From contig QZIR01000051.1 in the NCBI GenBank assembly GCA_003604975.1, forward strand, positions 1 to 64,000: 64,000 nucleotides of DNA. Direction: 5' to 3'. A program made the translations under genes and the position numbers. Below are positions 33,282 to 37,666 of the stretch, one piece after another (position 1 is the stretch's first letter; every line of letters begins with the position of its first letter). The stretch is from Desulforudis sp. Lineage in GTDB: Bacteria > Bacillota > Desulfotomaculia > Desulfotomaculales > Desulforudaceae. Under the pieces are notes generated by a model. It had not been told where the DNA came from. It did no database searches and saw nothing but the letters and a program-made list of their open reading frames with translations.

Positions 33282-35186
33282 CTACCTCTGCTTTACGGCC
33301 AGCCGGAGTTTTGGGGCGCGCTGCTTCTCGTTCTCGATTACTTCAACCACAGTGGCGGCGGTCAGGCCGTATTTTTCCCGTAGTATAGAGGGCTTTCCGT
33401 GTTCCACAAAGATGTCCGGGATCCCGATCATCCGGACCCGGACTTCGTCGATCTCCTTATTGGCTAACAGTTCCAGCACGGCACTTCCAAAACCGCCGCT
33501 GATCGTGTTCTCTTCGAGAGTAATGACTATCCGTGTCCGCTTGGCATACCGGGTAATCAGGTCAATGTCCAGCGGCTTGATAAACCGCGCATTAATCACG
33601 GCCGCGTTGATGCCTTTGGTGGCCAGGGTCTCGGCAGCCTCCACGGCCACTTGTACCATGTTGCCGATCGCCAGTAGCGTGACGTCGTCCCCGTCCTTCA
33701 CCACTTCGCCTTTACCAATCGGAATGCTTTTCAGTTCCTGATCTAACGGACAGCCCGTTCCGGTTCCCCGTGGGTAGCGGACCGCAATTGGCCCGCTGTG
33801 GTCGACCGCGGACTTCAGGAGGTGCTGCAGTTCATTCTCGTCCTTGGGGGCTGCAACCACGATGTTGGGAATCATCCGTAAGTAAGACAGGTCAAAAGCA
33901 CCCTGGTGCGTCGGTCCATCGTCACCAACCAGCCCGCCGCGGTCGAGGGCGAACACGACCGGCAGGTTTTGTAGACAGACGTCGTGGACCACCTGGTCGA
34001 AGGCCCGCTGCAGGAAGGTGGAGTAGATCGTCACCACCGGGCGCATCCCCTCTACAGCCAGGCCAGCGGCCAGAGTAACGGCGTGCTGCTCGGCAATACC
34101 CACATCGAAGAAGCGGTCGGGATACTGGCGGGAAAACTCCACCAGTCCGGTTCCGGTGGTCATTGCCCCCGTGATCGCAACCACGCGTTCGTCATCGTGG
34201 GCCAGGCGCACAACCGTCCGACCAAAGACCTCTGTATAGGTGACCCGTGGACCCTTCTGCGTCTTACCTGTATCGATCTCAAAAGGACCTACGCCGTGGA
34301 ACTTGTCCGGGTTGGCTTCAGCAGGAGCATAGCCCTTGCCCTTTCGGGTCAGGACGTGCACCAGCACCGGCCCATCGGCCGTCTTGGCCTGGTTAAAAAC
34401 ACTGATCATTGCCGCGATGTTATGCCCGTCAACCGGTCCCAGGTAGGTAAACCCGAGTTCCTCGAACAGCATGCCCGGTACCACCAGATACTTCAAGCTG
34501 TCCTTGACTCTTTCCCCCCACTTAAGCACACGGGGACCGATCGCTGGGATTCGCCTCATTAAAGTCTCAAACTCTTCCTTGCCCCGGGAATACATGGGGT
34601 CTGTCCGCAGTCGGGAGAGGTAGCCGGACAGGGCTCCCACGTTTCTGGCGATGGACATCTCATTGTCGTTCAGCACCACCACCAACCGTTTGCGCAAGTG
34701 TCCGGCGTGATTTAGGGCTTCAAACGCCATACCGGCCGTCATCGCACCGTCACCGATTACCGCCACCACCGAGCGCTCATCACCGCGAATATCCCGGGCC
34801 ACAGCCAAGCCTACGGCTGCCGAGATCGAGGTGCTGCTGTGACCGGTCCCGAAAATGTCGTAGATACTCTCCAGGCGTGAGGGAAAACCGCTTAAGCCCT
34901 CGTACTGCCGCAGCGTACCAAACTGATCACGACGTCCGGTAATAATCTTATGAGCGTAGCACTGGTGTCCGACATCCCAGATAATACGGTCGTTGGGGGC
35001 CTGAAAGACGCGGTGCAGGGCCAGACAGAGCTCGACCACACCCAGGCTGGGCGCCAAGTGACCGCCCGTCTGGCTGACCGTCTGGACGATTAGCTCCCGG
35101 ATCTCCCCGGCCAGGGTATCCATGTCATCCAGGGAAAGTGGGCGCAGGTCACGGGGTGTATTGATACGCTCGAGTATCTCGGTCAA
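33282..35186 (-). CDS. dxs: 1-deoxy-D-xylulose-5-phosphate synthase
   Basis: A 634-residue thiamine diphosphate enzyme making DXP from pyruvate and glyceraldehyde-3-phosphate, the entry step of the MEP isoprenoid pathway. [18 protein letters not shown]...[14 protein letters not shown] is the ThDP/Mg site. The transketolase-type pyrimidine domain ([15 protein letters not shown]) and C-domain are complete. The TTG start overlaps the oapA stop by 4 nt and follows AAGGTG by 8 nt, so translation is coupled to oapA. Confidence 0.97.
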
Positions 35187-35800
35187 CTACGTTTCACCTT
35201 CTTCTTTTTCTTTACGGTCCGGCCTCTGCTGTTTCCGGTGATGTTACAGAAGGAAACCCGTTCGATCAGGGCCAGCAACCGTCCGGCCATGAAGATAACC
35301 TCGTTTGGATTCCTGACCGCAAGTGTCTTACCGTATGCTTTACCGCCGACCACCATTGAGGCGATCAGGGCGGTTATTAAAACGTTAAGAAACAATATGT
35401 CCAGACCCGGACGCAACAAGACCACCTGGACCATCAGGGAAATACCAAGTGCGCCGGCCACAATGCCCGCAATATCACCGACCACGTCCTGGGTAAAATT
35501 AGCCACCCGATCGGCATTGCGAACCAGATACACGCTTTGCTGGGCACCGAATACTCTCTTTGAGGCCTTGGCGTGAAACGGGGCCTCATCTGCTGCAGTC
35601 GCTGCCGCCGCTGTTCCTATTATATCAAAGATAACACTGATGATAATGATAAGGAGTAAAAAGATGACGGCCAGGTAAACACTGGCCAATCTGCGGGTGA
35701 TCATCTCCGCGATGACACTGAAGAAAACGGTAGCCAAAAAAACGCCTGCCGCTACAATCAGAGCACGGCAAATGAGAGCTCGCGGGTCACAGTTTCGCAA
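35183..35800 (-). CDS. oapA: OLE RNA-associated membrane protein OapA
   Basis: A 205-residue membrane protein with about four hydrophobic segments (11-31, 41-62, 108-128, 133-152) and a strongly basic tail (KKKKKVKRS). DVVGD at 105-109 is a DxxxD motif as described for OapA. The position, between the OLE RNA and dxs, is the diagnostic location for this protein in OLE-carrying Firmicutes. OapA binds OLE RNA and brings it to the membrane, with links to Mg2+, cold and alcohol stress. TTG at 35800 has GAGGTG 7 nt upstream. Identification rests on context and topology. Confidence 0.87.
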
Positions 35801-35839
35801 GGAGTTGCACCTCAACCACGTTCGGTGATACATACCTGT

Positions 35840-36447
35840 GTTTAGGGGGTAAGTGACAGCAGATCAAATAAATACTGTAGCTTAGGTCCGTCAGGTTTTC
35901 CCAGATGGTTACCTGTCGTCGCCGAACAGGCGGTTTCCCTTGAAAACCATCTCCGGATCAAAATCCGGGGACGGATTACCACTTAGACTACACTTCAATC
36001 TTTGACCTGCCCGCATCGGACAGCCTAGGAGTTTTCCTCGGCAGAGTTATCCTTCCCCTAGCCTCTTTTGCAGAAACGGTTTCGACCCGCATTCCGGAAA
36101 TAAGGGCCCTCACTTCCCGAACGCTTTCAAGGGTATCCACCGCCACCACGCAAGGCAGGCTACACTGCACGCAGCGTCTACCACGAACAGGTTTCTACCC
36201 CAAGCCATAGTTCACTTGCGCTCCCCACGCACTTGGGTCTCCGCGGAACCAGGGTCAACGCCTACATGCCATTGTAGGTCGCCCCGAATCCTTAACTCCC
36301 AGTACCAGCCCCCAACTGGGCGTCGGTAGCCAACACCAGGAACTTCATTGATGTGCCCGATGGCGGATTTTTAGGCCCGCCTTCGAGGAAGGATCTCTGA
36401 CTAGGATACTGCGTCACTTACCCAAGAATCCTAAACATAGATCTTGC
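35840..36447 (-). ncRNA. ole: OLE RNA (ornate large extremophilic RNA)
   Basis: A gap of about 700 nt between ispA and oapA with no credible gene, exactly where OLE RNA lies in other Firmicutes. Its two ends pair over about 600 nt. GTTTAGG (minus 36436-36430) pairs with CCTAAAC (35846-35840). Just inside, GGGTAAGTGAC plus CAG near the 5' end pairs with CTGC-GTCACTTACCC near the 3' end (35847-35862), with small bulges. Internal hairpins such as CCTACA/TGTAGG (36261-36278) are visible. The span of about 600 nt matches the known size of about 610. The RNA forms a membrane ribonucleoprotein with OapA. Confidence 0.9.
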
Positions 36448-36453
36448 CTTCTA

Positions 36454-36478
36454 ATGATAGCACAGCCCCAAGCGTCAA
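36454..36478 (-). promoter_or_regulatory. Candidate OLE RNA promoter (extended -10)
   Basis: On the minus strand TGC-TATCAT is an extended -10 (TATCAT at 36459-36454), with TTGACG 13 nt upstream, too close for a standard -35. Initiation would fall near 36447, about 10 nt before the terminal stem of OLE. Confidence 0.4.
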
Positions 36479-36546: not shown

Positions 36547-37437
36547 TCAATACTCACGCGCGGCCACAAATTGCACGGCGTGGCGCAGAAAATCAGCTTC
36601 CCTTCCTAGTTCATCCAGGGCAGCCAAAGCATCCGAACAGGCCCGGTCAGCCTTTGCCCGGGCCTCGCCGATCCCGAAGAGCGTGGCGTAGGTAGACTTG
36701 CGGTTTCTGGCGTCGCTCCCGACCAGCTTGCCGATCTTGGCCTCATCCCCTGTTACGTCCAGAATGTCATCCGTGATCTGAAAGGCGAGGCCGAAATTCT
36801 CCGCGTACGTTGTAAGGCTGGCCAGCTGCTCCAGGCCGGCCCCGCTCAGGATCGCCCCCGCACGGACTCCCACCCGAAACAGGGCTCCTGTTTTGGCCCG
36901 GTGAATCCGTACGAGGTCCTCTTCGCTGACCGGCTTGCCCTCGGCCAGCAGATCCATTACCTGCCCGCCGATCAGACCGGAAGAACCGCATGCCTGGGTA
37001 ACCTCCTCCACGACGGTGAGCAAGAGTACGGGGTCCGGGCCGGTTTCACGGCCTCCCAGGACGAGCAAATGTAAGGCATGCGTAAACAGGGCGTCCCCGG
37101 CCAGAATCGCGATGTCTTCACCGAAGACCTTGTGGTTGGTTGGTTTGCCACGGCGCAGGTCATCATTGTCCATAGCGGGCAGGTCATCGTGGATCAGCGA
37201 ATAAGTGTGGATCAACTCGATGGCGCAAGCCGCCGGCAGGACGTGTTCGGGGTTCCCCCCCACCGCGTCTGCGGCAGCCAGCGTCAGGGCCGGGCGAATG
37301 CGCTTGCCGCCGGCAAACACGCTGTAACGCATGGCGGCGTGAATTACTTGCGGATCAGCATTCTCCGGGGGTAAATAGCGGTCCAGAGCGGCATCAATTG
37401 TTCTCGCTCTTTTCGCCAAGGCGTCCAGGAAATCCAT
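36547..37437 (-). CDS. ispA: Polyprenyl (farnesyl/geranylgeranyl) diphosphate synthase
   Basis: A 296-residue all-alpha prenyltransferase that extends DMAPP with IPP. The first aspartate motif DDLPAMDNDD and the second DDILDVTGD are intact, with GGKRIRP for IPP binding. Short-chain product (C15-C20) is inferred from family and context. ATG at 37437 overlaps the xseB 3' end by 44 nt; a GTG at 37452 is possible. Confidence 0.93.
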   Translation of the reverse strand: MDFLDALAKRARTIDAALDRYLPPENADPQVIHAAMRYSVFAGGKRIRPALTLAAADAVGGNPEHVLPAACAIELIHTYSLIHDDLPAMDNDDLRRGKPTNHKVFGEDIAILAGDALFTHALHLLVLGGRETGPDPVLLLTVVEEVTQACGSSGLIGGQVMDLLAEGKPVSEEDLVRIHRAKTGALFRVGVRAGAILSGAGLEQLASLTTYAENFGLAFQITDDILDVTGDEAKIGKLVGSDARNRKSTYATLFGIGEARAKADRACSDALAALDELGREADFLRHAVQFVAAREY

Positions 37438-37666
37438 TATCCGGATCTTCACTCCCCTCTAATGAAGGACGTGCGGTCAATTCATTCACCGACAAGGTCT
37501 GAATACGCTGTTCGGCATCTTCCAAAAGGCCGTGGCAACGCCTGGCCAACAAAACACCCTCGGCATACAAATCCAGCGCATCCTCCAGTGGGATGCGCCC
37601 GTCTTCCAGACGGCGCACCACTTCTTCAAGCCGCTTTAACGACTCCTCAAAGGTTCGCTCACCCAT
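37394..37666 (-). CDS. xseB: Exodeoxyribonuclease VII small subunit
   Basis: A 90-residue subunit with the usual helical hairpin (FEESLKRLEEVVRRLEDGRIPLEDALDLYAEGV) and an acidic disordered tail. ATG at 37666 follows GGGAGGGG. An upstream ATG at 37690 lacks a ribosome site. It sits away from xseA, with fchA and folD between them. Confidence 0.92.
   Translation of the reverse strand: MGERTFEESLKRLEEVVRRLEDGRIPLEDALDLYAEGVLLARRCHGLLEDAEQRIQTLSVNELTARPSLEGSEDPDNGFPGRLGEKSENN

Follow-up and report, generated by a model that had tools for sequence, protein, structure and literature searches.

A full-length OLE RNA gene with P1-paired ends in the ispA–oapA–dxs locus of Desulforudis

Few conserved bacterial RNAs are as large as OLE, whose biochemical function is still unsettled. 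In the 64,000-nucleotide stretch of a Desulforudis sp. contig that we analyzed (QZIR01000051.1, hereafter the window), ispA and the oapA-dxs pair flank a gap of about 700 nt, which raises the questions of whether this gap holds an OLE gene, where the RNA begins and ends, and whether it acts in its own right or as a leader of the genes downstream.

The gap between ispA and oapA holds a complete OLE gene

A sequence-only reading had placed OLE in this gap and named an Infernal search with the Rfam OLE model as the check. The covariance search returned RF01071 end to end (36433–35837 on the minus strand, model positions 1-616 of 616) with a score of 473.2 bits and an E-value of ~1e-136, compared with a gathering score of 50 bits. 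Location, neighbors and size are canonical, and the gap is confirmed as a complete, ordinary full-length OLE RNA gene of a kind largely known already. No further Rfam family exceeded its cut-off in the gap, and GOLLD and ROOL gave no match in the window; these are separate families, which resemble OLE in being large, structured and non-coding and in assembling into homo-oligomers. The 60-aa ORF that lies within the RNA (35988-36170) is without a Pfam match and was taken as spurious. By genome search the source genome has this one OLE copy only; searches of 60 close relatives and of 300 genomes from the phylum detected OLE in 53 and 217, respectively. Compared with the full-length OLE RNAs of Halalkalibacterium halodurans and Clostridium acetobutylicum, the window RNA is alike in length, motifs, domain layout, gene order and partner genes; it adds a longer, genus-specific outer extension of P1, and no other difference beyond family variation was seen. 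OLE variants 1 and 2 from the TANB77 and RF39 clades have P7-P9 missing or shortened and often lack the OapB site (PMC11332333), whereas in the window RNA, of the same family, the match to the full model covers both P7-P9 and P13.

The gene order ispA–ole–oapA–dxs is the canonical one, with all genes on the minus strand, and the flanking genes named by the earlier reading proved correct. Profile matches identified the upstream neighbor as an ispA-type farnesyl diphosphate synthase (36547..37452; NF045485, 358 bits) and, downstream of oapA, dxs (33282..35186; TIGR00204, 875 bits). The oapA gene itself (35183..35800, with a likely TTG start at 35800 behind GAGGTG at 35812-35807, and an ATG at 35833 also possible) was recognized by identity to the sister species and by its DxxxD motif: the protein is 88% identical to that of the sister species, has four hydrophobic segments and carries the invariant D105-x3-D109. 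This motif is the hallmark of OapA, a small membrane protein distinct from CNNM domains (PMC11332333); the OapA of one relative gave a weak CNNM match below the cut-off (E 7.6e-4), in agreement with the published account. Among the 142 OLE loci of the phylum with any neighbor match by tblastn, OapA was found at 140, Dxs at 130 and IspA at 127. Draft assembly could explain the genomes in which one partner is missing, namely two in which oapA is present and OLE was not found (G356 and G366) and one in which OLE is present and OapA was not found (G052). Four further genomes of relatives, with an estimated completeness of 92-97% (G004, G031, G040 and G048), yielded neither OLE nor OapA, as if the two had been lost together.

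The search for the other protein partners that the earlier reading had proposed located oapC in the source genome as an L7Ae-type gene between rpoC and rpsL, which in the PDB is most similar to L7Ae-like and YbxF entries. The bS21 gene is also present. We did not find infA in the source assembly, which has an estimated completeness of 99%; the rpoBC contig stops just past fusA, so that part of the ribosomal-protein cluster probably falls in an assembly gap. A KOW-domain search for OapB returned NusG, a NusG-like ORF and two weak matches below the cut-off. With infA missing from the source assembly, we turned to relatives. Candidates for OapB, with a KOW-type N-terminus and a length of ~95-165 aa by first start codon, lie directly upstream of infA in a genome of the same genus (G001) and in six other relatives, and the G001 candidate matches PDB entry 7K9B, 'OLE-associated protein B'; judged from this match, the sister species has OapB. 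The source genome also encodes a single MpfA-type protein (G000:C27:12573-13163; CNNM match, 442-aa ORF). An anticorrelation between MpfA and OLE has been reported, and the presence of this protein does not exclude OLE.

The terminal stem P1

The sequence-only reading had called the long-range pairing of the RNA ends self-evident. On the minus strand, GGGTAAGTGAC (36423-36413) pairs with GTCACTTACCC (35857-35847) in 11 perfect pairs, and outside this core GTTTAGG (36436-36430) pairs with CCTAAAC (35846-35840) in 7 perfect pairs, the two helices being separated by a one-sided six-nucleotide bulge, AUUCUU (36429-36424). The layout of the ends is thus 5' GUUUAGG-AUUCUU-GGGUAAGUGAC-G-CAG ... CUGCU-GUCACUUACCC-CCUAAAC 3', and the outer helix extends beyond an A-C mismatch (CUaUGUUUAGG/CCUAAACAcAG). 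In a single-sequence fold the core strands GGGUAAGUGAC (36413..36423) and GUCACUUACCC (35847..35857) pair with a probability of ~0.99. Shuffling gave an 11-bp Watson-Crick run between the 60-nt ends in 2 of 5,000 trials, and applying the same geometry at 2,933 positions of the window gave none. By duplex energy, however, 128 of these 2,933 equal or surpass P1. Duplex energy alone is therefore not decisive in this GC-rich window, and the stem as seen in one sequence is suggestive rather than self-evident.

What makes the pairing of the ends real is the comparison across the phylum. We extracted 146 OLE locus ends, of which 142 were distinct and 141 were scored. The mean score was 19.3 for cognate ends, 10.6 when ends were mismatched and 8.3 when they were shuffled; the mean duplex energy of cognate ends was -22.3 versus -13.7 kcal/mol. 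The pairing spans ~11–12 bp, and at most positions several kinds of Watson-Crick pair occur. In the ungapped set (n = 91), positions 2-10 are paired in 88-100% of loci and one position is nearly invariant, while at others all four kinds of pair are found, as at position 8 (A-U in 59 loci, G-C in 19, C-G in 8 and U-A in 2). This covariation indicates that P1 is held by selection, as is P3, and that an end-to-end stem is a feature common to OLE RNAs across the phylum and not new. Counted from the 5' end, the terminal helix comes first and so should be P1; it is almost certainly the published helix of that name, an identity that rests on numbering.

Pairing drops to background past position 12, which limits the family-wide core to ~11-12 bp and leaves the outer helix, GUUUAGG (36430..36436) with CCUAAAC (35840..35846), outside it. 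This block stood as far as its seven perfect pairs and their place are concerned, and its support is confined to the genus: the sister species has an outer helix of different sequence (CCUGUG/CACAGG), and no clear equivalent was seen in three further family members. With two species of differing sequence behind it, this outer block may be a chance pairing. The CAG/CTG extension that had been added to the stem did not survive. The minimum-energy single-sequence fold favors it, yet CAG (36411-36409) pairs with CUG at 36023-36021 as the start of P2; the Rfam alignment places the 3' CUG in another helix, with GCAGGUC, and the triplet preceding the P1 3' strand varies among relatives.

Two alternatives bear on these observations. 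The terminal stem might be chance complementarity of the OLE flanks, as the duplex-energy counts would allow and as might be read from the RF01071 structure line, in which neither the first 53 nor the last 21 positions are paired. The same structure line makes the stem evidence independent of the Rfam match, because the model leaves both ends unpaired; compensatory pairs of many types keep the stem paired across the 141 distinct loci, and one clade of OLE genes outside the oapA locus still pairs with a wholly different sequence, so that we regard chance as a very improbable source of the stem. Equally hard to credit is the idea that the window OLE is a decayed, non-functional copy. Its 473 bits are somewhat below the scores of most relatives, but the match runs from end to end. 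The conserved motifs, the GGCC loop and the helices P1, P2 and P3 are all intact, only a short branch separates the RNA from that of the sister species, and oapA is intact as well. The strands of P1, P2 and P3 are all left unpaired in RF01071, and with P1 and P3 pairing clear across the phylum the model is improvable; P1, with its strong covariation, could be added to it and defines the RNA ends for structural constructs.

Internal helices and the proposed ribonucleoprotein

Inside P1, inspection pairs CAG-UAU-CCUAG (36401..36411) with CUAGGCUG (36021..36028; CUAGG-CUG), a helix that corresponds to the published P2 by its numbering and its palindrome; the palindromic region of P2 is the published OapA contact. 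The adjoining CAGAG-AUCCUUCC (36387..36399) pairs with GGAAGGAU-AA-CUCUG (36042..36056) to form P3.1 and P3, of which P3 is paired in relatives also, and their 8 + 5 pairs are near the published typical 12. Both sequence elements of the dimer contact are present in the window OLE: the A-rich P4 loop (36368..36372, conserved CUAAAAAUCC), a published dimer contact (PMC12265935), and the palindromic P9 loop, GGCC (36105..36108), which aligns to the GGCC of RF01071 and is the published kissing-loop contact (PMC12286853). The P13 hairpin (35911..35930) is aligned in RF01071, and the literature assigns OapB binding to this region. All of these elements lie on the minus strand.

We consider it very probable (about 0.93) that the locus is a full-length Desulforudis OLE gene in the order ispA-ole-oapA-dxs, with its ends paired by P1, forming the core of an OLE ribonucleoprotein. 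Family membership, the pairing of P1 and P3 across relatives, the gene order, and the oapA, oapC and bS21 genes are established here. Transcription would probably start from a candidate promoter of OLE's own, a short distance upstream of the terminal stem. The RNA ends pair in the long P1 helix, which would close domain 2, to which Lyon and Breaker assigned P1, P2 and P10-P15 (PMC12265935); P1 delimits the structured RNA and probably shields its ends. Cryo-EM left domain 2 unresolved (PMC12265935). By homology with the OLE RNAs described in the literature, the window OLE may dimerize via domain 1 and be held at the membrane by OapA via P2 and P4a, with OapB bound to P13 and OapC to the kink-turn, and such a ribonucleoprotein would help the cell to withstand stresses.

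Promoter, stand-alone OLE genes and mode of action

Within 60 nt upstream of OLE, a perfect TATAAT occurs in 108 of 143 relatives, compared with 9 in shuffled sequences and 12 in a 60-nt control farther upstream, and this widespread element suggests a dedicated OLE promoter in the phylum. The corresponding site in the window is an imperfect candidate extended -10, TGcTATCAT (36454..36462, minus strand), with a predicted start near 36447. A strict two-hexamer scan did not report an OLE promoter in the window, and for that reason we infer its use here rather than count it as observed. For the OLE locus of H. halodurans a polycistronic transcript has been reported.

The tandem ole-oapA arrangement is described in the literature as nearly universal or usual. 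A motif search upstream of 80 named OapA loci found no OLE at 23 of them, some with too little flank, and at 18 with long flanks the covariance model found none either; 16 of the 18 genomes with such an OLE-less OapA locus carry OLE elsewhere. At least four related genomes (G011, G036, G044 and G016) keep an ispA-oapA-dxs locus that lacks OLE and have their single OLE gene elsewhere. These stand-alone genes (L048-L051, L080, L081 and L255-L270), which do not adjoin oapA, fall into two separate clades; in a quick tree, for which the program warns of long branches, both clades have full support and long branches. Those of Desulfosporosinus and of the Peptococcaceae group score 380-444 bits with RF01071 and share with the window OLE both the family model and a P1-type terminal stem, but they lie away from oapA, usually have a terminator-like hairpin and have a changed P1 sequence. 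At 17 of 20 stand-alone loci P1 is followed by a hairpin whose tail is rich in T, compared with 19 of the 139 linked ones (Fisher p 2e-10), and -10-like elements were seen by eye upstream of many stand-alone genes. In the Desulfosporosinus-type clade the sequence of P1 is completely different, yet in most of the members inspected its strands are still complementary.

These loci bear on whether OLE serves chiefly in cis, as a leader of oapA-dxs rather than as a free RNA; it would then be a giant riboswitch or attenuator whose P1 stem controls oapA transcription or translation. OLE does lie directly upstream of oapA in the window and in most relatives, and ~40 nt separate the end of the P1 3' strand from the likely start codon of oapA. 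That arrangement is absent from the two stand-alone clades, with their usual terminator-like hairpins, so OLE is not merely an oapA leader; the size and dimeric structure of OLE exceed those of known leaders, and in the window P1 is not followed by a U-tract. We accordingly judge the leader function unlikely, and the stand-alone loci argue, by their gene arrangement, that OLE acts in trans. If the stand-alone genes are functional, this natural separation shows OLE acting wholly in trans, and the relatives that carry them offer a natural test of such action. Somewhat favored on present evidence is a broader view, in which OLE would be an autonomous transcription unit, with its own promoter and P1-clamped ends, that left the oapA locus in the Peptococcaceae group and in the Desulfosporosinus-Paradesulfitobacterium group, where it is usually followed by a terminator and, in one clade, has a P1 of entirely new sequence.

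Within the literature searched, which covered papers outside subscription journals, we found no description of this stand-alone class. The window OLE itself is a further ordinary member of the family, and the stand-alone clades are the more interesting side finding. One genome (G026) has both arrangements, a linked OLE (L024) and a stand-alone OLE (L081); the two lie far apart, in different parts of the tree, and the second is thus not a recent copy of the first.
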